Positions 49,115 to 62,672 of a stretch of 62,672 bases of DNA are shown in pieces (the stretch's first letter is position 1; the number at the start of each line of letters is the position of its first letter). The position numbers were made by a program, and so were the translations under genes. Source of the stretch: Acidobacteriota bacterium (GTDB taxonomy: Bacteria > Acidobacteriota > Terriglobia > Bryobacterales > Bryobacteraceae); NCBI GenBank assembly GCA_016871155.1, contig VFZO01000007.1, positions 1-62,672 of the forward strand, given 5' to 3'. The notes under the pieces were generated by a model. It worked only from the letters and a program-made list of their open reading frames with translations. It made no database searches and was not told the origin of the DNA.

Positions 49115-50070
49115 GCATCTACTCTCTAAAACCTCTCGACTTTCAGGCCCTTCGCACCGTGCCGCTGCACGGGCGCGGGGGCAAGGTCACGCCGGAACTC
49201 TTCGCCAAACCCGTGGCCAAGGGCGGCGGGCTCTCCGAGTTCTTCGACCGGCTGCCGCGCATTCTGGCGGCCGATACGCTCCGCGCCGTGGCGGCGCGCA
49301 TTCTGGAGGCGCGGCGCAAACAGCGTGCCATTCTCTGGGGTATCGGCGGCCACGTCATCAAAGTGGGTTTGGCGCCCGTGCTGCTCGATCTGGCAGACCG
49401 CGGATTTCTCACGGGACTCGCCATGAATGGGTCGGCGTCGATTCACGACTATGAGATCGCCGTGGCCGGGCACTCGTCGGAAGACGTGGAGGCCGTGCTG
49501 CCGGACGGATCGTTCGGGTCCGCCGAGGAGACTGGCCACGATCTGAACCGGGCGATTCGCGACGCGGCGGGCACGCTGGGCATGGGCGAGGCGGTGTGCC
49601 GCTGCATTTCGGAAAAGGCGAACCCGGAGTACGCGGGCGCCAGTCTCCTCTACGGCGCCTACCAGCGCAAACTACCCGTGACCATCCATGTCGCCGTGGG
49701 AACGGACACGCCGCACACGCATCCGCTGGCCGACGGCGCGGCGATCGGCGAGGCGACCTATCGCGATTTCCGGCTCTTCAGCAGCATGGTCCGCGGCCTG
49801 GACGACGGCGGCGTTTATATTAATCTCGGCTCGGCCGTAATTATGCCGGAGGTTTTTCTGAAGGCGGTCTCGGTGGTTCGCAATCTTGGCTACCCGCTGC
49901 GAAACTTCTCGACCGTCAATTTCGATTTTCTTCAGCACTACCGCCCCAGCGTGAACGTGGTGAAACGCCCGCACGCCAACGCCGGCGGCCAGGGCTACGC
50001 GCTGACCGGGCATCATGAGATCATGATTCCTCTGCTGGCGGCCATGCTGGTGGAGCAGGATAACGGATGA
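49111..50070 (+). CDS. Deoxyhypusine-synthase-like protein, paralog 2
   Basis: A 319-residue protein, the same length as the paralog at 24122-25081, and alignable with it: [72 protein letters not shown] and [20 protein letters not shown]. The C terminus ([19 protein letters not shown]) replaces the lysine-bearing DHS motif. It has a probable NAD-binding fold. ATG 49111 overlaps uvrA; the stop overlaps the CPBP gene start by 4 nt. Its substrate is unknown; the coupling to uvrA may reflect gene packing rather than a repair role. Confidence 0.6.
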
Positions 50071-50768
50071 AGCCAGAGTGGGGATGGAAAGAGGCGCTGG
50101 CGTCGGTTGGGCTCATGGGCCCCAGCCTGCTGGCGGGCACCATCCTGGCCTACGCGGCCGGCTATCTGGTTCACGGCAAAGCGCCCAGTTCGCTGCAGTT
50201 GGCCGTGCCCAGTCAGGTGTTTTCCTACGCCTGCTGGCTGGTGTGCATCTGGCTTCTCTTTAAGGTCAAAGGTCTTTCGGCGCCCCGGGAATTGGAGCTC
50301 GGCTGGCCGGGCGGCCCGGCGGTGCTGCAATACCTGGCGCTCGGACCGGCGCTGACGCTCGGCGTCGGCGTGCTCGGGAACCTGTTGAAGGCCAACGACC
50401 TGAACGTCAACCTGATCAAGGACATTCTGGCCGACCCGATCGCCCGGCCCATGCTGCTGCTGTTCGGCGTTACCATCGGCCCGCTGGTGGAGGAGATGCT
50501 CTTTCGCGGCATCCTGCTGCCGGTTGCTGCGCGCACGCTGGGTGTCGCCGGTGCGCTGCTGCTTACCTCGGTTCCGTTCGCGCTCATCCATGGGCCGCAG
50601 TATTCGTGGAGCTGGCAGCACTTAGTTTTGCTGGTGGGCGTCAGCGTGGCATTCGGCGTGGTGCGGCTGCGCTCGGGCTCGACAATGGCGTCGACACTCA
50701 CGCACGGCGCGTACAATTTGATGATGTTCGCCGGCTATTTCATTACCCATAAGGATCCTCAGCTTTAA
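50067..50768 (+). CDS. CPBP-family intramembrane metalloprotease
   Basis: A 233-residue polytopic protein with about seven hydrophobic segments. The CPBP/Abi signature is present: [11 protein letters not shown] (EExxxR), PFALIHG (His) and [13 protein letters not shown] (second His/Asn motif). These residues form the zinc site of Rce1-like intramembrane proteases. The substrate is unknown. It is coupled to the DHS-like gene (4-nt overlap) and followed 2 nt later by mtnA. Confidence 0.87.
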
Positions 50769-50770
50769 AC

Positions 50771-51802
50771 ATGGTCGAAACGATTGAATGGACGCCGGCT
50801 GGCGTCGTAATGATTGACCAGACGCGGCTGCCCCGCGAAACGGTCTTTGTCACTTGCACGGACTATTTGCAGGTGGCCGATGCAATCCGCACGATGATCA
50901 TCCGCGGCGCGCCGGCTATCGGCGTGGCGGCGGCGATGGGGGTGGCCATCGGCGTGGCGAAGTCCGCCGATCCGGACGCCGATTTCGAGCGGATCTGCGA
51001 GACGCTGGCCGCCACGCGGCCCACGGCGGTGAACCTGTTCTGGGGCATCGAACGAATGCGGCGGCTGTGGGCGGGCTTGCACGGCAAGCCTGCGGTGGAA
51101 AAGGTGGCGGCCGCGGTGCGGGAGGCGATCCTGGTTCGCGAAGAGGACATCGCCATCTGCAAGCGCATCGGCGCGCACGGAGCGGATCTGGTGCCGGACG
51201 GCAAGACGGTGCTGACGCACTGTAACGCGGGCGCGCTGGCGACGGCCGGGTACGGTACGGCGCTCGGCGTGATCCGGGCGGCGGTGGAGAAGGGCAAGAA
51301 GATCGACGTGTTCGCCGACGAGACCCGGCCGTTTTTGCAAGGCGCACGGCTGACCGCCTGGGAGCTGCAGCAGGACGGCATCTCGACGACCTTGATCACC
51401 GATAACATGGCTGGGCACTTCCTGCGCTCCGGCCGCATCGGCTGCGTGGTGGTGGGCGCCGACCGCATCGCCGGCAACGGCGACGTGGCGAACAAAATCG
51501 GCACCTACTCGGTGGCGGTGCTGGCCAAGGAGAACGGAATCCCGTTCTATGTCGCGGCACCCATCTCGACCTTGGACCTGACGCTCGAAAGCGGCGAACA
51601 GATACCGATCGAGGAGCGCGCGGCCGATGAGGTGACCAGCGTTTTCGGCGTGCCGATCGCGCCAGAGGGTATCGCCGCCCGCCATCCGGCCTTCGATGTG
51701 ACGCCGAACCGCTATGTGTCGGCCATTATTACGGAACGCGGCTTGGCGCGGGCACCGTTCGCCGAAAGCCTGCGTGCGTTGAGCCTACTCGAGGACCGGT
51801 AG
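50771..51802 (+). CDS. mtnA: S-methyl-5-thioribose-1-phosphate isomerase
   Basis: A 343-residue MtnA that converts methylthioribose-1-phosphate to methylthioribulose-1-phosphate in methionine salvage. The family motifs are [13 protein letters not shown], the catalytic Cys in [18 protein letters not shown], and the Asp in [20 protein letters not shown]. No other salvage gene is adjacent, so the pathway must be dispersed or MtnA may be used for other 1-phospho-ribose analogues. The 3' end overlaps the convergent HTH-like gene by 18 nt. Confidence 0.94.
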
Positions 51803-52003
51803 CTTCGCCAGCAGGCGCAGCACCAGCAGATCGGACGACTGATAGGTCGTCATGCCGACGTTATTCATTTCATCTTCGTTCTGCGCGATGTGTGTGCGGA
51901 CGAGGTCGCGGAACCGGTCGAGGGAGACACCGAGCGCTTCCGCGGCTTCGGTTTCCGTATAGAACGACTTGGCGGAGGCCCTGGAGGGAAGCGTTGTGAT
52001 CAT
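51785..52003 (-). CDS. Small HTH/excisionase-like protein
   Basis: A 72-residue protein. [20 protein letters not shown] resembles the helix-turn-helix of MerR/excisionase-type DNA-binding proteins, and [20 protein letters not shown] forms an amphipathic C terminus. ATG 52003 is chosen because the text conserved in such small acidobacterial proteins starts near [10 protein letters not shown]; the frame extends to 52093 without clear similarity. It is downstream of the SGNH hydrolase on the same strand after 155 nt. That gap holds a 5-bp palindromic stem at 52108-52124 but no terminator. Confidence 0.55.
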
Positions 52004-52158
52004 TGCATTTCTACCGATTTCAGTGGGGTCAATTGCGATTGTATGGACCTTTTGGGTTTTGCCCAATTGGAGAGAAAGCTTAGATGCCGCCACGCAATGT
52101 ACTGACGTTGCCTGGTACCGGCAAGATAGGGTAAATACCAGAAGAGACCGGGTAGAAA

Positions 52159-52899
52159 TTACCTTAGTGCGGCTCGAATGCCTTCCTCCACCAGCCGTGC
52201 CATGATTTCGTAGCCTTTCTGGTTCGGATGCAGGCCATCCCGGGACGTTCCGTCCATAAGCAGGCCTTTTTCGTCAGCCAACGCCTTGTGATAGTCCACG
52301 TAGACGGCACCGGTCCTGGCGGCGTAAGCGCGGAGCCATTCGTTGAGCTTCAGAATATCGGCGGGAGGCCGGCCGGCGGTCTGTTTTCTCTCGGTATAGT
52401 CGCTCACCGGCAGCACGGCGCACAACACCACGCGAATGCCGTGCACTTTGGCCAGTTCGGCCATGGCCTGAATGTTCTGGGTGATCTGCGTCAAAGTGGC
52501 CGGCCCGGTGTTGCGGGCGATATCGTTGGTGCCGGCGAGCAGCACGAAGGCGGCGGGCTTCAGGTTGATCACGTCGGGGAAGAACCGGACCAGCATTTGC
52601 GGCGTGGTCTGCCCGCTGATGCCGCGATTCAGGTACGGCTTGCCGGGGAAGGACTGATCGAGCTTCCAGCCGTCGGTGATCGAATCGCCGTAGAACACTA
52701 CGCGTCCAGCGGGCGCCGGCTGGGCCTTCAGCTTCTCGTTCTCGGCGTGGTACCGGCCCAGTTGATTCCAATCCTGCAACTGTTCGGTAAACCGCTGGGC
52801 GGCCATGGGCAGGCAGCAGCCCGCGCGTGGCGTAGCAAACTCCTCGGAGAGCTGGGCAAACAAGCCGGCGGCGGACAGGAAAAGCGCGGAGATTCGCAT
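52159..52899 (-). CDS. Secreted SGNH/GDSL hydrolase
   Basis: A 246-residue esterase-like protein. A signal peptide (MRISALFLSAAGLFAQ) is followed by the block I nucleophile VVFYGDSITDGW, block III LAGTNDIARN and block V TSRDGLHPNQKGYE with the catalytic Asp/His. It resembles platelet-activating-factor-acetylhydrolase-like deacetylases of carbohydrates. ATG 52899 is chosen because it begins the signal peptide; the longer frame to 52959 is not leader-like. Confidence 0.85.
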   Translation of the reverse strand: MRISALFLSAAGLFAQLSEEFATPRAGCCLPMAAQRFTEQLQDWNQLGRYHAENEKLKAQPAPAGRVVFYGDSITDGWKLDQSFPGKPYLNRGISGQTTPQMLVRFFPDVINLKPAAFVLLAGTNDIARNTGPATLTQITQNIQAMAELAKVHGIRVVLCAVLPVSDYTERKQTAGRPPADILKLNEWLRAYAARTGAVYVDYHKALADEKGLLMDGTSRDGLHPNQKGYEIMARLVEEGIRAALR

Positions 52900-52938
52900 C
52901 GCCCTCGAACCTAACACAAATTCCTTGATGGGTTTTCC

Positions 52939-53050
52939 CACGCTTCGGCGCGTGTACAAGTGAGGGCCGAACCGCTAGACGGTTCCCAGGCTCATCATGT
53001 CGGAGGCAGCGAGGCCGGCTCAACACCGCCTCGCTTTCCTTTTCTTTCCG
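52939..53050 (+). promoter_or_regulatory. Structured leader with terminator-like hairpin upstream of the kinase operon
   Basis: Three stems lie in series in the divergent gap. CGC-UUCG-GCG is at 52941-52950. GAACCG with CGGTTC (perfect 6-bp stem, 5-nt loop) is at 52969-52985. A long stem pairs AGCGAGGCCGG (53008-53018) with CCGCCTCGCT (53026-53035), ten base pairs with one bulge. The last stem runs into the T-rich TTTCCTTTTCTTTCC (53036-53049), so it looks like an intrinsic terminator or attenuator only 16 nt before the first start codon. The plus-strand promoter was not located. The same DNA is also the 5' region of the divergent hydrolase. Confidence 0.4.
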
Positions 53051-53066
53051 ATCGGGGGCAGCGGAT

Positions 53067-53300
53067 GTGTCGCCAGATACCTACAGACAAATTAAGCTGC
53101 TATTCAATCAGACCATCGAGCTTCCCCCGGCGGAAAGAGAGGAGGCCCTGGCCCAGGTGGATCCATCGCTTCGGACCGAGATCGAGATCCTGATCGCTGA
53201 GGCCGAGACCGGCGAGCCGTTTTTGGACCAGCCCATCGTGAGCTGGGAGTTCCGCATGCGGACGCAGTTGGCGGCGATGCGGCATACTACCTCAAGGTGA
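53067..53300 (+). CDS. Stand-alone homolog of the kinase N-terminal segment
   Basis: A 77-residue protein. Its first half (SPDTYRQIKLLFNQTIELPP, AEREEALAQVDPSLRTEIEI) parallels residues 1-50 of the kinase that follows (TPERYSQVKSLFQLVLEQPA, EQRPAFLERACGADRDLYAQ). It therefore looks like a separately encoded copy of that module, with a different C-terminal tail. The GTG 53067 start and the GTGA overlap with the kinase imply coupled synthesis. A regulatory or decoy role is inferred; a decayed duplicate is the alternative. Confidence 0.6.
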   Translation: MSPDTYRQIKLLFNQTIELPPAEREEALAQVDPSLRTEIEILIAEAETGEPFLDQPIVSWEFRMRTQLAAMRHTTSR

Positions 53301-56071
53301 CTCCCGAGCGGTATAGCCAGGTAAAGAGCCTGTTTCAGTTGGTGCTGGAACAGCCCGCCGAGCAGCGGCCCGCGTTCCTGGAACGCGCCTGCGGCGCCGA
53401 CCGCGACCTGTACGCGCAGGTTCGGGAACTGTTAAAGGCGGACTACACCTCGCAGGATTTCCTCGAAAAACCAGCGATCACCCCGATCTCTAAGGTCCTG
53501 GACGAAGTGGCGGCCGAATCCGAGGAGCGAATGCCGGCCACAATCGGCCCCTACGCTCTGCAACGGGCCATCGGCAGCGGAGGCATGGGCGCCGTGTACC
53601 TGGGCCACCGGGCGGACCGCTCGTTCAACAAACAGGTGGCGATCAAGATCATCCGCAAAGGGATGGAGACGGACCGCATTTTGCAACGATTCAGGCGCGA
53701 ACGCCAGATCGTCGCGTCCCTGGACCACCCGAACATCGCCCGGCTGCTGGACGGAGGCGCCACCGCCGACGGGCGGCCCTACTTCGTCATGGAGTATGTC
53801 GACGGCATGCCCATCGACGTGTGGTGCGACCAGCGCCGCCTGCCGGTCGAAGCGCGTCTGAAGCTGTTCCTGCAGGTCTGCGACGCCATTCACTATGCCC
53901 ACCAGAATTTGATCATTCACCGCGACATTAAGCCGGGCAATATCCTGGTGCGCGCCGACGGCAGCGTGAAGCTGCTGGACTTCGGCATCGCCAAGCTGAT
54001 GAACCCGGACTTGGCCGTGGCGGCCAGCGAAAAGACCGCGACATCGATGCGGCTGATGACGCCGCAGTACGCGAGCCCCGAACAGGTGAAGGGCGAGAGC
54101 GTGACGACGGCCAGCGACGTCTACCTTCTGGGTATCGTGCTGTATGAGCTTCTCACCGGCCACCGGCCGTACGACGTGCGCGACGGCGGAACGATGGAGC
54201 TGATGCGGGCGGTCTCGCAGGGCGAGCCTCCCAAGCCGAGCGAGGCCGCGTTCCGGGTCAAGGAATCGCTGGAAATGGACGGCTCCCGCAAGGTGACGCG
54301 CAATATCAACACGGTGGCGTTCGCACGGAATATTGACGCCTCCAAGCTCGCCACGCGGCTGCAAGGAGACCTGGACGCGATCGCGCTTCGCGCGCTGCGG
54401 CGGGCGCCGCAAGAGCGCTACGAATCCGCCGCGCAGATGGCCGAGGATGTTCGCAATCATCTGGCGCGGCTGCCGGTCACGGCGCGCTCGCAATCGGCGG
54501 GGTATCGGTTCCGCCTGTTCCTGCGCCGCAACACGGGCATGGCCGCGGCGGCGACGGCGGCCATGGCCGCGCTGATTCTAGTGGCGGTCTTCGCGGTCTA
54601 TCAGGCCTCCCGGGCGCGCATCGAACGGCAGCGGGCGGAGGCCCGTTTTTCGGAAGTGCGGAAGATGTCGAACACGCTGCTGTTCGACGTGCAGGAGTCG
54701 CTGGCGCCCCTGGCGGGCACCACTCCTGCGCGCCGGTTGCTGGTACAAAAATCGCTTGAGTATTTAGGCAATTTAACGAAGGAGTCCGGCGACGACGAAA
54801 CGCTGCAGCGTGAGTTGGCCGCCGGCTATCTGCGCATCGGGCACTTGCAGGGCAATCCGAACTTCGCCAATCTAGGCGATACGGCGGGCGCGCTGCGAAG
54901 CTACAGGCAGGCCGAGGCGATGCAGGAACGGCTGCTCGCGGCCGGCGGAAAGAACGCGGCGCTGCGCAATGAGCTGGCCGGCACTCTGGAATCGTTGGCC
55001 GATATGCAGATGATCGCCGGCGACTCGGTGGCGGCGCTCGAAGCTTTGCGAAAAGCGGTGCGGTTCCGGGAAGAGGGTAGTGCCCCGGCGGACGTGCTTG
55101 CAGCCAGCCGGCACAATCTGGCCGTGGCGATGTCGTTGACGGGCGCCGGCGCCGAAGCCCGCACCCTGGCCGAGCAGGCGCATCGCGCCACGCTGGAACT
55201 TTCCGGTGCCGGCGCGCCGCGCCAACAGGCGCTGAGCCACGGGAAGCTGGCGGCCGTTCTGGACCGGGCCGGGGACCCCGCCGCGGCTATCCGTCATTTC
55301 CAAAGCGCCCTGGAAGCACATGAGCGCATGGCCGCGGCCGATCCGCTCAGCGCACGCGCCAAGCGGGACCTTTCGTTCGCGCTCGAGGACCTGGGCGACG
55401 CCACGCGGCGGGCCGGCGGCGACGCTTCGGCGCTGTACGGACGGGTACTGCGGCTCCGCCGCGAACTCGCCGTCACCGATCCGCAAAACGTCCAAGCCCG
55501 GCGGGATCTGGCCTACGCGCTGCTGAAACAGGGTGCGGCGGAGGATGCACTGGAGTCGTTCCGGCAACTGGCGGCGCTGGACGCCGGCAATGTTCTGGCC
55601 AGGCGGGACCTTGCGCTGGCGCACGAAAAACTAGGAAGCGCCCTGCTGCGAGCCTCGAAGCCGGCCGAGGCGATCGGCCAATTCCGTTCGATGCTCGCCG
55701 CGGCGCGCGAATGGGCGCAAAAGGACCCGGCCAGTCCGCTGGCCAGCCATATGATCGCTGTAGCCCAAATGAAGTTGGCCGATGCGCTGACCGGGTCCGG
55801 CGATCGCGCGACGGCGGTGGACAGCGCACGGGCGGCGATCACGGTGCTCGACACGCTATTGGGGAAAGAGAGCTCCAACCGGCTCTTCCGCAGAGACCGG
55901 GCGGTGGCGCAGTGGGTCCTGGGCCGCAGCCTGGGGGATTGCGCCGCGGCGCGTCCGGAGTTCATAAAAGCGAAGGCCCTCTTTGAGGAGTTGGCGAAGC
56001 AGGGCCGTCTATTCGGAGAGGATGCCGCGGCCGCGTCCAATATTGATGTGCAGCTGGAAGGCTGTAAGTAG
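53297..56071 (+). CDS. Membrane Ser/Thr protein kinase with TPR-like C-terminal domain
   Basis: A 924-residue Hanks-type kinase. Residues 1-60 are the helical segment common in these proteins. The kinase domain starts at about 84: Gly loop AIGSGGMGAVYLG, Lys117 in QVAIKIIRK, HRD at 208-210 (IIHRDIKPGNIL) and DFG at 228-230. One membrane helix lies at about 414-434 (TAAMAALILVAVFAVYQAS). The outer part of about 480 residues is a helical repeat array rich in Ala, Leu and Arg, matching TPR solenoids. It is expected to sense a periplasmic partner through the TPRs and phosphorylate cytosolic targets. The start is GTG 53297. Confidence 0.9.
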   Translation: MTPERYSQVKSLFQLVLEQPAEQRPAFLERACGADRDLYAQVRELLKADYTSQDFLEKPAITPISKVLDEVAAESEERMPATIGPYALQRAIGSGGMGAVYLGHRADRSFNKQVAIKIIRKGMETDRILQRFRRERQIVASLDHPNIARLLDGGATADGRPYFVMEYVDGMPIDVWCDQRRLPVEARLKLFLQVCDAIHYAHQNLIIHRDIKPGNILVRADGSVKLLDFGIAKLMNPDLAVAASEKTATSMRLMTPQYASPEQVKGESVTTASDVYLLGIVLYELLTGHRPYDVRDGGTMELMRAVSQGEPPKPSEAAFRVKESLEMDGSRKVTRNINTVAFARNIDASKLATRLQGDLDAIALRALRRAPQERYESAAQMAEDVRNHLARLPVTARSQSAGYRFRLFLRRNTGMAAAATAAMAALILVAVFAVYQASRARIERQRAEARFSEVRKMSNTLLFDVQESLAPLAGTTPARRLLVQKSLEYLGNLTKESGDDETLQRELAAGYLRIGHLQGNPNFANLGDTAGALRSYRQAEAMQERLLAAGGKNAALRNELAGTLESLADMQMIAGDSVAALEALRKAVRFREEGSAPADVLAASRHNLAVAMSLTGAGAEARTLAEQAHRATLELSGAGAPRQQALSHGKLAAVLDRAGDPAAAIRHFQSALEAHERMAAADPLSARAKRDLSFALEDLGDATRRAGGDASALYGRVLRLRRELAVTDPQNVQARRDLAYALLKQGAAEDALESFRQLAALDAGNVLARRDLALAHEKLGSALLRASKPAEAIGQFRSMLAAAREWAQKDPASPLASHMIAVAQMKLADALTGSGDRATAVDSARAAITVLDTLLGKESSNRLFRRDRAVAQWVLGRSLGDCAAARPEFIKAKALFEELAKQGRLFGEDAAAASNIDVQLEGCK

Positions 56072-56093
56072 ATCCGCCTAAACCAGAAAAATA

Positions 56094-56122
56094 TTACCCC
56101 TGTCGTGTAGGAGTACTATAGT
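56094..56122 (+). promoter_or_regulatory. Candidate promoter for the PEP-CTERM gene
   Basis: TTACCC (56094-56099) and TATAGT (56117-56122) are separated by 17 nt; the -10 has five of six consensus matches and the -35 three. A transcript starting about 7 nt later would make the first ATG (56130) almost leaderless, which favours translation from ATG 56142. Confidence 0.35.
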
Positions 56123-56141
56123 TCTGCCGATGTACGTACAA

Positions 56142-57134
56142 ATGCAAACCCCGTTTGTCGGAGCGGCCGCGCTCGCATTGTGTTCCTCGGTAGCTGCGTT
56201 GGCGATGCCTATCACCACGCCGCCGGGATTGAATCCGGGAGACACTTATCGATTAATGTTTGTTACGTCCGCTGCTCTTCCAGTTTCGAACTGGTCGATC
56301 GTTGAGCTAAACAACTTTGTTCTGGCCGCCGCAAACGCTTCGTCGTCCCTTGCGGCACTCGGAACCACCTGGACGGTGGTCGCACGGACTGTAAATACAA
56401 GTGAATTCGACAATTTGGGAGGCCCCGGCGATGCCGCGGTCTACAATTTGGGCGGAGATCAGGTGCAGACCAGCCTGCTTTCGCTCTTAACAACACTGAA
56501 CGTGGTTAATCCTCTTGTTTACAATGAGTTGGGTGGTGTGAACTCCTCGCCGCTGGTAATGACGGGGATTGGATCCTGCTGTGCCATTGCCGGCCCAATC
56601 GGGTCGGCAAATCCGTGGCTCGGAAATACGACACTCTCCGGTATTCGTTGGGCGCACGTATCCGAGTTGAGCGCAAATGGCGCGTACCCCGTGTATGGAA
56701 TCTCCGGCGTCATCACTGTCCCGGCTGCGCATGGCAGCAACACTGGTGGTGGATCGGGAGGTACGACTGGGACCGGTGGAACTAGTGGTACAGGAGGTAC
56801 TGGTGGAGCCGGTGGCTCGAGCGAAACTGGCGGCGGATCCGGTGGGACAAGTGGAACTGGCGGGACCGGTGGCACAGGCGGATCAGGCGGCTCAGGCGGA
56901 ACAGGCGGCTCTAGTGGAACGGGCGGGTCCGGAGGAAGCGGAGGAAACGGTGGGACCGGCGGAACAGGCGGCTCTGGTGGAACGGGCGGATCCGGCGGAA
57001 GCGGCGGAACCGGTGGGACTGATCCCGGCCCGGGAAATCTGGGCGCGACCACCGAAACCCCCGAACCGGGCACGATTCTGCTGATGGGCGCGGGCCTCGC
57101 CGCTCTGGCCTGGCACAAACGGCGCGAGGCTTAG
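56142..57134 (+). CDS. PEP-CTERM-sorted surface protein with Gly-rich repeat region
   Basis: A 330-residue exported protein. The signal peptide is MQTPFVGAAALALCSSVAAL. An N-terminal domain of about 180 residues follows (PGLNPGDTYRLMFVTSAALP, NWSIVELNNFVLAAANASSS, GISGVITV), seen in other PEP-CTERM proteins. Residues about 201-292 are a low-complexity Gly/Ser/Thr array. The C terminus is a PEP-CTERM sorting signal: TPEPGTILLMGAG, a hydrophobic helix, and HKRREA. An exosortase (not in the window) should process it to the cell surface or exopolysaccharide. ATG 56130 is an alternative start. Confidence 0.85.
   Translation: MQTPFVGAAALALCSSVAALAMPITTPPGLNPGDTYRLMFVTSAALPVSNWSIVELNNFVLAAANASSSLAALGTTWTVVARTVNTSEFDNLGGPGDAAVYNLGGDQVQTSLLSLLTTLNVVNPLVYNELGGVNSSPLVMTGIGSCCAIAGPIGSANPWLGNTTLSGIRWAHVSELSANGAYPVYGISGVITVPAAHGSNTGGGSGGTTGTGGTSGTGGTGGAGGSSETGGGSGGTSGTGGTGGTGGSGGSGGTGGSSGTGGSGGSGGNGGTGGTGGSGGTGGSGGSGGTGGTDPGPGNLGATTETPEPGTILLMGAGLAALAWHKRREA
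56742..57019 (+). repeat. Tandem short-period repeat coding Gly-Gly-(Thr/Ser) triplets
   Basis: About 280 bp of degenerate 9-bp units (GGCGGAACA, GGCGGCTCA, GGTGGGACC and variants) inside the PEP-CTERM gene. All units keep frame, so the protein shows GGT, GGS and SGG in nearly every position. Length changes in multiples of 9 nt would not shift the frame, so the array is a likely site of size variation between strains. Confidence 0.85.
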
Positions 57135-57183
57135 AAAACTGGGCGCAAACACGGGTTCTTGTTAGAATCGTTAGACGCCCCGC

Positions 57184-60100
57184 ATGTATACGCAAGCTCC
57201 GAAAGTACCTGATTTTCCAGCGCTTGAGCGCGAAGTTCTCGCCTTCTGGCGGGAGAAGCGCGTATTCGACAAGCTGCGGGCGCAGAATGCTGGCCGGGAG
57301 CGCTTTTCGTTTCTGGACGGACCTATCACCGCGAACAATCCGATGGGCGTCCATCACGCCTGGGGACGGACGCTCAAAGACATTTACCAGCGGTACAACG
57401 CGATGTGCGGCCGGGAACTGCGCTACCAAAACGGCTTCGATTGCCAGGGCCTCTGGGTGGAGGTGGAAGTCGAAAAGAGCATGGGTCTCGGCACGAAACG
57501 CGACATTCGCGATTTCGGCATCGAGAAGTTCGTCCAGGCCTGCAAGGAGCGTGTGCTGACCTTCGCGGCCAAGCAGACCGAGCAGTCCGTGCGGCTCGGG
57601 TATTGGTGCGAATGGGACGATCCTGAGGTGCTCCGCGAATTGCAGGCGGCACTGGCCGCCGGCGATCGCGTTGTGACCTGCACCCTGCCCTCCGGCAAGG
57701 TGGAGACGGCGCGGGCCAGCGAGATCGTCCGGAAACTTGGTTCGCCGGAGTACGGCGGGAGCTACTTTACATTCTCCGACGAGAACAACTACACCATCTG
57801 GTCGATGCTCAAGAAGTGTCACACCGAAGGGTTCATCTACCGCGGCCACGACGTAATGCCGTGGTGCGGACGCTGCGGGACCGGCCTATCGCAGATGGAG
57901 GTCGCCGAGGGCCGTAAGATCACGGCTCACACTTCAGTCTTTGTCCGGTTTCCAATTCGGGGTCAGGACAAAAAGGCACTCCTGGTCTGGACCACTACGC
58001 CGTGGACGTTGACCTCAAACGTAGGCGTGGCGGTCAATCCGTCGATGACGTACCTGGAAGTCAGACACAACGAGTGGTCGTACTTCGTGGGCAAGGGGAA
58101 TTTCGAGCGCGACCGCGTGCAGGACCTGCAAGTGGAAGGCAAGCACGAAACCCACAAACTGCCTTCGATCCGCACGATTCTCAAGGGCACCGGCACCGTG
58201 GAGATCGTTCGCGAACTGCCGGGTTCGGAGCTGATCGGACTGACCTATGACGGTCCGTTCGACGAACTGGACGCGCAGAACCGCCCCAACGGCGTTTTTC
58301 CGTACGGCGAACACGGCGGCGGCCTGTCCGCCCGCCAGGCGCATCGTGTGATCGGCTGGGATGAGGTCAGCGAGTTCGAGGGCGCCGGCCTGGTCCACAT
58401 CGCGCCGGGTTGCGGCGCCGAGGACCAGGAGCTGGGCAAGCACGAGAACCTTCCGTTCATCGCGCCGCTCGACGAAGCAGCGGTCTTTACCTCCGAGTTC
58501 GGCCCTTTCACGGGGAAACGGGCCAGCGACGTGGCCGATGAAGTCGTGGCGGCGCTGAAGGCAACCGGCTTTCTGGTGGCTCGCGAAAAATATCCGCACG
58601 TCTACCCGCACTGCTGGCGCTGCAAAGAGGAATTGGTCTTCCGGCCCGTCGACGAGTGGTTCATTCGGATGGACTGGCGCGACCGCATCCAGCGCGCGGT
58701 GCCCACCGCACGCTGGATTCCCAGCGAGGGCGAGGCGCGCGAGCAGGATTGGCTCAAGAACATGGGCGACTGGATGATCTCGAAGAAACGCTTCTGGGGC
58801 TTGGCCCTGCCCATCTGGGTTTGCGAGGGGTGCGACGAGTTCACCGTGATCGGCGGACGCGAGGAGTTGCGGGAAAAAGCGACGGAGGGCTGGGATGTAT
58901 TTGAGGGCAACTCGCCGCATCGCCCTTACATTGACGCTGTAAAAATCGCCTGTCCCAAATGCGGCGCCACGGCCCATCGCATCGAGGATGTGGGCAATCC
59001 GTGGCTGGACGCGGGTGTGGTCTCCTTTTCCACCCTGCGATTCCGGACGGACCGTGAATATTGGGAGAAGTGGTATCCGGCGGACCTCGTACTGGAGAGT
59101 TTTCCCGGCCAATTCCGTAATTGGTTCTATTCCCTGCTGGCCATGGCCGCGATGCTCGACGGGCGCGCGCCGTTCAAGGCACTGCTGGGCCACGCGCTGG
59201 TGCGCGACGCGCGCGGCGAGGAGATGCACAAATCGAAAGGCAACTCTATCGCCTTCGACGAAGCGGCCGAAGTGCTCGGCGCCGAAGTGATGCGCTATCT
59301 CTACGCCGCGCAGAAGACGGCGCAGAACCTGAACTTCCCCGACCTGAAAAGCACCGGCGCGGCCGGCAGCGGCATCGACGGCGAAACGCGCCGGAAACTG
59401 CTGACCTTTTGGAACTGCTATTCCTTCTTTCTCCTGTACGCCGAGACGGAGAAGTGGAAGCCGGCGGGCGAATACTCGCCGGGATCGAACGAACTGGACC
59501 GTTGGGTCGTCAGCCGGCTGCAACGGTTCATCGGAACCGCGCATGCCGCGCTGCAGGCCTACGAGCACTACCGGGTCGTCGAAGGCTTTCAGGAGTTCAC
59601 CGAGGAGTTTTCGAACTGGTACCTGCGCCGGTCGCGGCGGCGGTTCTGGGAGAATGACAACGACGCGTTCGCGACGCTTTATCACGTGCTGCTCACCGTC
59701 TGCCAGTTAATGGCACCAGTGTTGCCGTTCCTTACCGAGCACATGTACCAGAACTTGGTGCGCGCCGTCGATCCGGCCGCTCCGGAGTCGATTCACCTGA
59801 CGCGCTACCCCGCCGCACGCGCCGAGTGGCTGGACGATAGTCTTGAGACCGCCATCGAGACAGTGGTCCGGATCAAAAATCTGGCCCTCAATGCGCGGAC
59901 GCTGGGAAAGCAAAAGATCCGCCAGCCGCTGGACGCCCTGTACGTCCGCCCGCGCAACGGCGCCGAGCGGGCCGTGCTGGCGGATGCCAACTACGCCGCC
60001 CAAGTGTTAGAGGAGGCCAACATCAAGCGTCTGGTGTTGATCGACGACGAACTGGCGCTGGTGAAAGCGACTCTGGCTCCGGACGCCAAGAAGGTGGGTC

Positions 60101-60558
60101 CCAAGGCCGGAAAGAATCTCAAAGCCATGGCCGCGGACCTGGCGGCCATGGACCCGCGCCCGATTCTCAAGGGCGAGGGCGTTACTCTGTACGACGTGGC
60201 GTTGACCAACGAGGAGATCGTAGTGAAGTATGAGCATCCGACGCTGGTCTCCACGGCCGAGGGCGGAACGTTTGTGGCCCTGGAGACACACTTGACGCCG
60301 GAACTGGTTGACGAAGGGATCGCCCGCGACTTCAACCGGTTGGTGCAGGACCAGCGGAAGGCGAAGGACTATGACGTATCCCAGCGGATTACGATCCGGT
60401 ATCGGGCTTCGGCGAACGTCGCCCGCGCCCTGGCCGCGCACGAGGAGTTTCTGAAAAACGAACTGCTGGCGGTGGAGTTGACCCAGGGCGATGCGGCGGA
60501 CGGCGCGAAACTGAACCTGGCCGGCGAAGAGATCTTCGTAACAACTTCGATAGTCTAA
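57184..60558 (+). CDS. ileS: Isoleucyl-tRNA synthetase, type 2-like, with altered GXHH signature
   Basis: A 1124-residue class I synthetase. The class signature aligned to HXGH reads G55-V56-H57-H58 inside NNPMGVHHAWGRTLKDI, so first and third residues are swapped. The second signature is MHKSK at 681-685. The editing domain is present (VWTTTPWTLTSNVGVAV and HIAPGCGAEDQELGKH). Zinc-type Cys pairs occur at WCGRCG, HCWRCK, CEGC and CPKC. An insertion of about 45 residues follows WCEWDD near residue 146. A short gap of 49 nt precedes ATG 57184, with a TAGAAT possible -10 at 57163-57168. It charges tRNA-Ile; the swapped motif has been linked to strong mupirocin insensitivity in type 2 enzymes. 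Confidence 0.92.
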   Translation: MYTQAPKVPDFPALEREVLAFWREKRVFDKLRAQNAGRERFSFLDGPITANNPMGVHHAWGRTLKDIYQRYNAMCGRELRYQNGFDCQGLWVEVEVEKSMGLGTKRDIRDFGIEKFVQACKERVLTFAAKQTEQSVRLGYWCEWDDPEVLRELQAALAAGDRVVTCTLPSGKVETARASEIVRKLGSPEYGGSYFTFSDENNYTIWSMLKKCHTEGFIYRGHDVMPWCGRCGTGLSQMEVAEGRKITAHTSVFVRFPIRGQDKKALLVWTTTPWTLTSNVGVAVNPSMTYLEVRHNEWSYFVGKGNFERDRVQDLQVEGKHETHKLPSIRTILKGTGTVEIVRELPGSELIGLTYDGPFDELDAQNRPNGVFPYGEHGGGLSARQAHRVIGWDEVSEFEGAGLVHIAPGCGAEDQELGKHENLPFIAPLDEAAVFTSEFGPFTGKRASDVADEVVAALKATGFLVAREKYPHVYPHCWRCKEELVFRPVDEWFIRMDWRDRIQRAVPTARWIPSEGEAREQDWLKNMGDWMISKKRFWGLALPIWVCEGCDEFTVIGGREELREKATEGWDVFEGNSPHRPYIDAVKIACPKCGATAHRIEDVGNPWLDAGVVSFSTLRFRTDREYWEKWYPADLVLESFPGQFRNWFYSLLAMAAMLDGRAPFKALLGHALVRDARGEEMHKSKGNSIAFDEAAEVLGAEVMRYLYAAQKTAQNLNFPDLKSTGAAGSGIDGETRRKLLTFWNCYSFFLLYAETEKWKPAGEYSPGSNELDRWVVSRLQRFIGTAHAALQAYEHYRVVEGFQEFTEEFSNWYLRRSRRRFWENDNDAFATLYHVLLTVCQLMAPVLPFLTEHMYQNLVRAVDPAAPESIHLTRYPAARAEWLDDSLETAIETVVRIKNLALNARTLGKQKIRQPLDALYVRPRNGAERAVLADANYAAQVLEEANIKRLVLIDDELALVKATLAPDAKKVGPKAGKNLKAMAADLAAMDPRPILKGEGVTLYDVALTNEEIVVKYEHPTLVSTAEGGTFVALETHLTPELVDEGIARDFNRLVQDQRKAKDYDVSQRITIRYRASANVARALAAHEEFLKNELLAVELTQGDAADGAKLNLAGEEIFVTTSIV

Positions 60559-60600
60559 GGAACGATTCAAGGCGCTGGCGCGTTTTGCCGGATAGACGCC

Positions 60601-61461
60601 ATGCGGATCGCGCTCCTCTTCACACTCGCTCTACTGCCCGCCGAGGACGCCCAATCCATAATGGCGAAGGCCGCCGCAAACATGGAGAGCGGCGCCGAAG
60701 CCCGGCGCAACTACGTCTACCAGCAGAAGGTGTTCGCCCGCCTGCTGCGAACCGACGGCCAGGTGGCGCGCCAGGAGCGGCGGGTGTACTCGGCGGTTCC
60801 AGGCAAGGATCGGACCGCGAAGGAATTGGTGAGCCTGGACGGCGAGTATCACAAGAACAAGAACGAGGTGATCCGCTATACCGGCCCGGAGTTCGAAAAG
60901 GGTGGCGTGGACGTGGACGGCGCTCTTGTCGAGAGCTTGATGCGCGATTTCGTCGAGAACAAAAAGTCGCGTGACGGCATTCCTCATTCCCTGTTCCCCT
61001 TCCGCGTCGCGGATCTGCCCTACTACCAGTTCCAGTGGCTGGGCGAAGGCCAGCACCAGGGTCGGCGAGTCCTTCGCATCGGCTTCTCGCCGAACAAGAA
61101 GACGAAATGCAAGAACGACGAGCACTCCGATTGCCCAATGCCCTGGAAGGGCGAAGCGTTGATCGACGCCGAGGAGTATCAGCCGGTACGGATCGCGACG
61201 GACCTGGACTTCAAGATGCCTTGGGGTGTACGTTTCTTTCTGGGAACAAACCTTCGTCAGACGGGATTTTCGGTTACCTATACACGTGTGGCGGAAAACG
61301 TCTGGTTCCCCTTCACGTACGGCTCCGAGTTCCGGCTCGACGTCCTGTTCGGGTACAAGCGAGTGGTCACGCTGGCCTTGGATTCGAGCGACTTTAAGCG
61401 GACGGAAACCGGAACCACCATCCGGTACGAAGGGGTCGAGCCGCCCGCTACGTTACAATAG
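60601..61461 (+). CDS. Secreted protein of unknown function
   Basis: A 286-residue protein with a short signal peptide (MRIALLFTLALLPAEDA). The first part is helical and basic, and the second is beta-rich (ADLPYYQFQWLGEGQHQGRR, DAEEYQPVRIATDLDFKMPW, GFSVTYTRVAENVWFPFTYG). The overall pattern recalls LolA-like or DUF4292-type periplasmic proteins, but I see no diagnostic motif. A Cys pair (KCKNDEHSDC) could form a disulfide. It lies between ileS and accA with modest spacing, so it may have its own expression. Confidence 0.65.
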   Translation: MRIALLFTLALLPAEDAQSIMAKAAANMESGAEARRNYVYQQKVFARLLRTDGQVARQERRVYSAVPGKDRTAKELVSLDGEYHKNKNEVIRYTGPEFEKGGVDVDGALVESLMRDFVENKKSRDGIPHSLFPFRVADLPYYQFQWLGEGQHQGRRVLRIGFSPNKKTKCKNDEHSDCPMPWKGEALIDAEEYQPVRIATDLDFKMPWGVRFFLGTNLRQTGFSVTYTRVAENVWFPFTYGSEFRLDVLFGYKRVVTLALDSSDFKRTETGTTIRYEGVEPPATLQ

Positions 61462-61472
61462 TAGCGTTGCCC

Positions 61473-62315
61473 ATGGACGATATCCCTTTGGGAATGGAAG
61501 GCGGTACGTCACCGCTGGCCCAGACTTGGCAGCGCGTCCAACTGGCGCGCCATCCCAAACGCCCGCATACTCTCGATTACGTCGAACGGATGGTCACCGG
61601 ATTCTCTGAAATCCATGGGGACCGCTGTTACGCCGACGATCCGGCGATCGTGACTGGCCCGTGCTTTCTGGACGGACGGCCGGTCATGCTGGTGGGACAC
61701 CAAAAGGGCCGGGATACGAAGCAAAAGCTGTACCGGAACTTCGGAATGCCGAAACCGGAGGGCTACCGGAAGGCGTTGCGGGCGATGAAAATGGCGTCAA
61801 AATTCCAGAGACCGATCGTCGCTTTGCTCGACACCCCAGGCGCCTATCCAGGAATTGACGCCGAGGAGCGCGGGCAGGCCGAGGCGATCGCGGTGAGTCT
61901 TCGTGAGATGACGCGGCTGCAGTCGCCGGTGGTTTCGGTGGTAATCGGCGAAGGCGGATCGGGCGGGGCGCTCGCGCTAGGCGTGGCCAACACCGTCTTA
62001 ATGATGGAGAACTCGATCTACTCCGTGATCAGCCCGGAAAGCTGCGCGGCGATCATCTGGCGCGACGCCGGAAAGGCCGAACTGGCGGCGGACGCCTTGC
62101 GCCTGACCTCGCGCGACCTGCTGCAACTGGGACTGATCGATGGCATCATTCCCGAACCGGCCGGCGGCGCCCAGAACGATTGGGACGCGGCGGCGGCCAA
62201 CCTGAAGGCGGGCGTCCAGGCGGCGCTGGCCAAACTGGAAACCATGACCCCGGCCCAACTCGTGGAACACCGGTATGAGAAATTCCGCAAAATGGGCAAC
62301 TTCTTCGCCGGATGA
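61473..62315 (+). CDS. accA: Acetyl-CoA carboxylase carboxyltransferase, alpha subunit
   Basis: A 280-residue AccA, somewhat shorter at the N terminus than the roughly 317-residue E. coli protein. The family text is present: RPHTLDYVERMVTGFSEIHG, DRCYADDPAIVTG, KGRDTKQKLYRNFGMPKPEG, DTPGAYPGIDAEERGQAEAI, IGEGGSGGALALGVAN, then ENSIYSVISPESCAAIIW. It transfers the carboxyl group from carboxybiotin to acetyl-CoA, with AccD, to give malonyl-CoA for fatty acid synthesis. ATG 61473 is preferred over TTG 61467. The stop overlaps the next start by 4 nt. Confidence 0.95.
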   Translation: MDDIPLGMEGGTSPLAQTWQRVQLARHPKRPHTLDYVERMVTGFSEIHGDRCYADDPAIVTGPCFLDGRPVMLVGHQKGRDTKQKLYRNFGMPKPEGYRKALRAMKMASKFQRPIVALLDTPGAYPGIDAEERGQAEAIAVSLREMTRLQSPVVSVVIGEGGSGGALALGVANTVLMMENSIYSVISPESCAAIIWRDAGKAELAADALRLTSRDLLQLGLIDGIIPEPAGGAQNDWDAAAANLKAGVQAALAKLETMTPAQLVEHRYEKFRKMGNFFAG

Positions 62316-62620
62316 ACAAGAACACGATCATATTGATCGCCGTCACCGCCATCGGCCTACTGGTGTTAATGGTGTCCTCCACGCTGTCGCTGGGCGGATA
62401 CAAAGTGGAGATTTGCAAGGAATTTCAGGGCCGCCAGGCGTGCGGCACCGCCGTCGGATCGTCGGAGACCGACGCTATGAATACCGCCACGCAGGTGGCG
62501 TGCGCGCAGATTTCGTCCGGGATGACGGAGTCCACGCAATGTCAGGCCGGGAATCCTGTAAAGGTCACCTGGCTCAACCCAAATCCGGCAGTTGGCCCCC
62601 GGCCAGCTGGCCGGAAGTGA
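62312..62620 (+). CDS. Small single-pass membrane protein of unknown function
   Basis: A 102-residue protein with one N-terminal membrane helix (TIILIAVTAIGLLVLMVSST). A short extracytosolic domain contains four cysteines (CKEF, ACGTA, ACAQ, QCQAG), suggesting two disulfides, and a Pro-rich tail. It is coupled to accA by a 4-nt overlap but has no evident role in carboxylation. Confidence 0.6.
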   Translation: MNKNTIILIAVTAIGLLVLMVSSTLSLGGYKVEICKEFQGRQACGTAVGSSETDAMNTATQVACAQISSGMTESTQCQAGNPVKVTWLNPNPAVGPRPAGRK

Positions 62621-62672
62621 TGGATACTGAACGGGATGAGCGCAATCGAGCGACGGAAAACGGCTCACCCGT
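62620..62672 (+). CDS. Possible start of a further gene, cut by the window end
   Basis: An ATG at 62620 overlaps the preceding stop (TGATG) and stays open to the window end (Met-Asp-Thr-Glu-Arg-Asp-Glu...), 17 codons with a hydrophilic start. ATG 62636 in another frame is equally open. Too little sequence is present to choose or identify it. Confidence 0.25.
   Translation, partial: MDTERDERNRATENGSP

Follow-up and report, generated by a model that had tools for sequence, protein, structure and literature searches.

A GVHH signature in the HIGH slot of the only isoleucyl-tRNA synthetase found in an Acidobacteriota genome, and the probable replacement of IleRS1 within its genus

The window analyzed here is a stretch of 62,672 nucleotides from the draft genome of an Acidobacteriota bacterium (GCA_016871155.1, contig VFZO01000007.1). 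It carries ileS2, a gene for isoleucyl-tRNA synthetase (IleRS), on a contig that also bears accA, mtnA, and uvrA-like genes. A gene for a PEP-CTERM protein that contains a long repeat rich in Gly, Thr, and Ser (56130-57134) lies directly before ileS2. The following features of ileS2 were assigned:

57184..60558, + strand: ileS2, isoleucyl-tRNA synthetase of 1124 amino acids, assigned to type 2 (NCBIfam TIGR00392, solved relatives, genome search)
57346..57357, + strand: GVHH, residues 55-58, slot of the HIGH signature (codons, phmmer alignment)
57622..57759, + strand: insert of 46 residues (147-192) between GYWxxW and NNYTIW, common to part of the GVHH family (alignment, model)
57988..58011, + strand: WTTTPWTL, residues 269-276 (sequence)
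58423..58425, + strand: Asp414, in VHIAPGCGAED, invariant in a 51-row alignment (alignment)
59221..59235, + strand: EMHKS, residues 680-684, slot of the KMSKS signature, with the first Lys and the first Ser replaced and the second Lys kept (alignment)
60001..60537, + strand: C-terminal domain DUF5915, residues 940-1118 (domain match; also matched in one HNGH-type IleRS2 and not in the IleRS1 of one congener)

No regulatory RNA was found near ileS2 at Rfam gathering scores (50000-62672), no sigma-70-like promoter between 56900 and 60800 (0.6 expected by chance) and no tRNA gene in the window. One terminator-like site was found between 56900 and 60800, with 3.5 expected by chance. The GC content over ileS2 (0.61-0.63) is similar to that of the surroundings (0.59-0.69). 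We could thus discard a compositional island and saw no sign of recent foreign origin; an older transfer is neither supported nor excluded by these values.

The window protein scored 646.5 bits against the TIGR00392 ileS equivalog model, which has a cut-off of 621.4, and is an isoleucyl-tRNA synthetase by this test. In phmmer comparisons it was nearer to type 2 enzymes (553 bits for Priestia megaterium PmIleRS2 and 523 for Thermus thermophilus TtIleRS) than to type 1 enzymes (252 for PmIleRS1 and 237 for SaIleRS1), while the IleRS1 of a congener (G004) gave the reverse pattern, with 952 bits for PmIleRS1 and at most 362 for PmIleRS2. When an AlphaFold2 model of the protein (51 aligned rows as input, mean pLDDT 90.4) was searched with Foldseek, the four top matches were entries of PmIleRS2. 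These included the hyper-resistant HIGH mutant 8c8w, an engineered GVHH variant that ranked second by fold and first by phmmer. Brkic et al. (2023; PMC10485003) distinguish type 2 by a C-terminal SD3 that lacks the zinc-binding motif of IleRS1. Accordingly, DUF5915 was matched at the C-terminus of the window enzyme and zf-FPG_IleRS was not, while the latter is present in the G004 IleRS1. Judged from its sequence the window enzyme is a type 2 IleRS. In a tree of 102 proteins, made by a quick method with SH-aLRT as its only support value, IleRS1, the HNGH-type IleRS2 and the GVHH family formed separate groups. In this tree, which includes reference enzymes neither of the minor IleRS2 clade of Brkic et al. 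nor of the GXHH subclade of their major clade, the window enzyme fell among proteins from Planctomycetota, Chloroflexota, Fidelibacterota, Pseudomonadota, and others. Membership of the MupA/MupB families was considered and rejected, because the scores (536.8 and 482.1 bits) are far below the cut-offs of 1900 of the NCBIfam exception models.

In the HIGH slot, the codons GGC GTC CAT CAC, in frame with the ATG at 57184, encode G55, V56, H57, and H58. The motif stretch aligned without gaps to PmIleRS2 by phmmer, with GVHH placed on the GVHH of 8c8w and on the HVGH of 8c8v, and with RTLKD of the window enzyme on RTIKD of PmIleRS2 as an anchor. In the AlphaFold2 model a helix (residues 56-74) starts at the motif. 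The protein thus has Gly in the first position and His in the third and fourth, and a pattern search found H-x-G-H nowhere in its 1124 residues. The placement proposed in an earlier note on this DNA is therefore correct, and no normal HXGH, which that note regarded as the sign of a misplacement, is present elsewhere in the protein. [GA]-x-H-H occurs in the protein at residue 55 only. The bare string is frequent by itself, with 33 occurrences in the six frames of the window, so that it is the location in the HIGH slot that counts. The valyl- and leucyl-tRNA synthetases of the same genome (ValRS and LeuRS, named by NCBIfam) have retained LHIGH.

The type 2 enzymes of two congeners, G014 (83% identical) and G007 (88% over 802 residues), carry the identical GVHH letters. 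Both were picked up by a whole-protein search and not by a motif search, and the motif is therefore no error of a single assembly. The gene of G007 is broken off at a contig end and was omitted from the protein tree. Between the window genome and G014, ileS2 has a dN of 0.122 and a dS of 1.33 (NG86), as expected for a gene under strong purifying selection; together with the lack of any other IleRS found, the dN/dS of 0.09 suggests that the enzyme is active.

Further relatives were collected by a scan of genome contigs with the patterns MGVHHAW and YQNGFDC. Among the 80 listed of 578 confirmed matches, 79 had GVHH and one AVHH, counts which are uninformative on the frequency of the motif because the scan was motif-based and only 80 of the 578 are listed. 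xMHK[S/T] was found in 79 of these 80, the exception being L165, and the two class I signatures, HIGH and KMSKS, may have changed together. An IleRS1 of the same family as the window genome (L055, genome G019) has AMHKS along with HLGT, so the Ser-to-His change in KMSKS also occurs beyond the GVHH enzymes. By a single regular expression the insert was long in 31 of the 80 listed relatives, short in 26, intermediate in 5, and unmatched in 18; in the window enzyme it is modeled as a helix, two strands, and a short helix. We assign WTTTPWTL to the CP1 editing domain as its threonine-rich segment, and Asp414 is presumably an editing-domain residue. Three IleRS2 belonging to the GVHH family (L172, L187, and L173, the last with AVHH) are on contigs labeled Bathyarchaeota or Brockarchaeota and group beside Chloroflexota enzymes, which reflects either a transfer to archaea or a binning error.

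According to the earlier note, the altered motif had been reported in a subset of bacterial type 2 enzymes and associated with very high mupirocin resistance, with no loss of activity. PMC10485003 bears this out: it describes G/AXHH as HXGH with the first and third positions swapped, present in 86 IleRS2 among 379 IleRS and in no IleRS1, all IleRS1 having HXGH. The natural ALHH enzyme of Deinococcus radiodurans (DrIleRS2) is reported there with a Ki for mupirocin of 6.6 mM, which dropped 823-fold to 8.1 μM with HVGH; its catalysis is little affected and no trade-off was seen. Conversely, GVHH raised the Ki from 0.20 to 35 μM in TtIleRS2 and from 1.08 to 460 μM in PmIleRS2, so that exchanges of the motif shift Ki approximately 175- to 820-fold in both directions. 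According to the same text the third His replaces the first in catalysis and, in a model, clashes with mupirocin.

The window enzyme resembles the G/AXHH enzymes treated in PMC10485003 (D. radiodurans with ALHH, and Streptomyces griseus) in its swapped HIGH motif within a type 2 IleRS. It comes from Acidobacteriota, and its sequence has EMHKS and the 46-residue insert. In 8c8w an identical GVHH occupies the HIGH slot. However, that protein is engineered from a wild type with HVGH, while the window GVHH is natural, and the two are 29% identical by fold alignment. PmIleRS2 also has a canonical KMSKS and lacks the insert; the alignment breaks at query residues 151-197, where the chain has no residues. 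Ki values and catalysis are therefore not simply transferable to the window enzyme. The T. thermophilus IleRS (1ile), another type 2 relative, is 34% identical by fold alignment and, unlike the window enzyme, has the canonical HVGH according to PMC10485003. MupA and MupB are related IleRS that confer acquired mupirocin resistance, whereas the window enzyme is the only IleRS found and its gene shares a contig with accA, mtnA, and uvrA-like genes. PMC9927545 touches on mupirocin resistance in staphylococci, for which a eukaryotic origin is supposed, and mentions Acidobacteria. Among the titles and abstract openings listed, none concerned GXHH or IleRS replacement in Acidobacteriota.

Whether the genome holds a second ileS had been raised in the earlier note, and none was found. 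The genome was searched with the window protein, with the IleRS1 of a congener and with TIGR00392. ileS2 was the only gene above the ileS cut-off in this draft, which is 99.87% complete in 577 contigs with 6.54% contamination, so that another ileS might lie on a piece missing from it. Other matches were rejected as a second IleRS, being ValRS (contig C169) and LeuRS (C400) by NCBIfam, with weaker unnamed matches on C62 and C245. Since the one IleRS found at this completeness is a type 2 GVHH enzyme, intrinsic insensitivity to mupirocin is a sound prediction.

A whole-protein search of 41 genomes, 19 of them in the genus of the window genome, divided the genus. The GVHH enzyme was found in three of the 19 (the window genome, G007, and G014), with no IleRS1 found there, and an IleRS1 with ANGNIHLGHAF was found in the other 16, with no GVHH enzyme found; for five of the latter, completeness is only 58-83%. 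The three formed one clade (100/98) inside the genus in a ValRS and AccA tree of 25 genomes, four rows of which cover only 24% of the columns. In all 14 IleRS1 loci that we compared among the 16, lspA follows ileS1. A YjhG/YagF-type dehydratase gene adjoins ileS1 on the other side in G003, G004, and G015, about 40-350 bases away, and is further off or outside the piece examined in the remaining loci. On contig C207 of the window genome this dehydratase gene (85% identical) and lspA are 7 bases apart as open reading frames, and there is no ileS1 match between them. The lspA contig of G014 is also without ileS1 but is only 3.3 kb long, and lspA was not found in G007. In both G014 and G007, ileS2 is found at another site, where its neighbors are fabD and a gene for an RND permease. 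The genus thus offers a clear case of an essential and presumably sensitive IleRS1 displaced by a presumably resistant GVHH IleRS2.

Altogether, we consider the housekeeping enzyme of this organism to be a type 2 IleRS with GVHH as its HIGH motif. By analogy with the enzymes of PMC10485003, H57 in the third position would act on the transition state as the first His does in HXGH, with the role of H58 unchanged, and the side chain of H57 would clash with mupirocin, so that inhibition would be expected only at millimolar concentrations. The enzyme is thus probably active and mupirocin-insensitive, and the organism, having no other IleRS that we found, would be intrinsically insensitive. The gene would have entered the ancestor of the three-genome clade, most likely by horizontal transfer, after which the native ileS1 beside lspA was lost. 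We assign this explanation as a whole a probability of roughly 0.88; the direction of transfer and the antibiotic as driver are what we infer. The reading of the earlier note was hence largely right, the mechanism being already published in PMC10485003.

Other explanations were weighed against this one. With a contamination estimate of 6.54% the gene might come from a contaminating contig and not be the organism's own IleRS. This is highly improbable, since accA and mtnA, which share the contig with ileS2, show 84-86% identity to the G014 and G007 copies, much like ValRS on another contig, the same enzyme is present in these two congeners from separate assemblies, no other IleRS was found, and the place of ileS1 is empty. 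It is also conceivable that the motif was inherited and is tolerated with no relation to antibiotics in this organism. The published catalytic cost is small, as seen for natural DrIleRS2 in PMC10485003, and the motif, which all listed relatives of the motif-based scan have as GVHH or, in one case, as AVHH, is probably older than the window lineage. On the other hand, the motif exchanges of the same study alter Ki by two to three orders of magnitude in both directions, and replacement of IleRS1 by a GVHH enzyme fits selection, although selection is here an inference; we regard an origin unrelated to antibiotics as doubtful.

Somewhat less likely still is an ancient presence of the GVHH enzyme in the family, where ileS1 and ileS2 would have coexisted and then been sorted by differential loss without any transfer into the genus. 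In its favor, mtnA lies approximately 5 kb upstream of ileS2 both in the window (mtnA at 50771-51802) and in G041 (palsa_129, Bryobacterales; L242, 5390-6415), and the identity between these two genomes is 73.0% for IleRS2, near the 73.5% for mtnA and 73.6% for UvrA, so that a common older location is possible. Yet, at the thresholds applied, the genes between mtnA and ileS2 gave no match between the window and G041, ileS2 lies elsewhere in G014 and G007, the trio sits within a group of 16 congeners that yielded IleRS1 only, and none of the 41 genomes searched, which are drafts and in some cases incomplete, had both enzymes. A search with a neighboring gene (L051:11917-13254) returned many paralogues and was uninformative. 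At least one transfer is required by a second pair of genomes. In G041 and in G042 (SRVP_32, Terriglobia) the GVHH enzyme is the only gene above the ileS cut-off, and it is 82.6% identical between them, compared to 54% for ValRS, 70% for UvrA, and 65% for mtnA, which points to horizontal transfer. The ValRS of G042 is a weak marker, since its identity to that of the window is uneven (63% over the first part, 48% over the rest) and its branch in the ValRS tree is long; UvrA and mtnA point in the same direction. In that tree G041 is the sister of G019, a genome of the window's family with IleRS1; three changes of the GVHH label are required on it. The origin of the gene in the trio is less sure than the transfer between G041 and G042. 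Because several congeners are drafts and the G042 ValRS is uneven, our preferred explanation loses some certainty and differential loss gains weight.

Acquisition of the enzyme by transfer and loss of ileS1 remain our preferred reading for the genus. For the phylum, we tentatively suggest, at slightly less than even odds, that mupirocin-sensitive IleRS1 was displaced more than once in Acidobacteriota by a traveling hyper-resistant IleRS2 with GVHH and xMHKS, the old locus being cleanly empty in one genus. If so, these genomes are a natural paired experiment on the antibiotic-driven replacement of an essential enzyme. In an even draw of the phylum the pattern MGVHHAWG was present in 7 of 396 genomes. 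Six of these matches, including the window genome, were confirmed as IleRS, which is a lower bound because the pattern is strict; the match in G070, with no tblastn match and stops in frame, was rejected. New here are a member of the G/AXHH enzymes as the only IleRS found, a replacement within a genus with an empty locus, and evidence for transfer between genomes of the phylum. The published resistance mechanism, a change in the most conserved catalytic motif of a class I synthetase, would thereby extend to what looks like the only housekeeping IleRS in a lineage from the environment. Comparing IleRS1 and GVHH IleRS2 carriers within one genus reveals the gain as well as the vacant former locus, and isolates could show whether natural IleRS inhibitors drive such replacements.

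Two other signature variants were met in relatives of the window organism. IleRS1 with HXGT, in which Thr replaces the fourth His, was seen in L263-L274, L055, L056, L058, and L062, and in genomes G019, G020, G023, and G027. Across the phylum, the pattern ANGxIHxGTA was present in 77 of 396 genomes and in 54 of 211 genera (0 for the backwards control), and all 12 of the matches that were examined were IleRS1 by their first 590 residues. Our literature search found no paper joining aminoacyl-tRNA synthetases and HXGT. The other variant is an IleRS2 of approximately 1214-1297 amino acids with HNGH, in which X is Asn and not hydrophobic, found in the same family and order (L059, L061, L063, L065, and L067).
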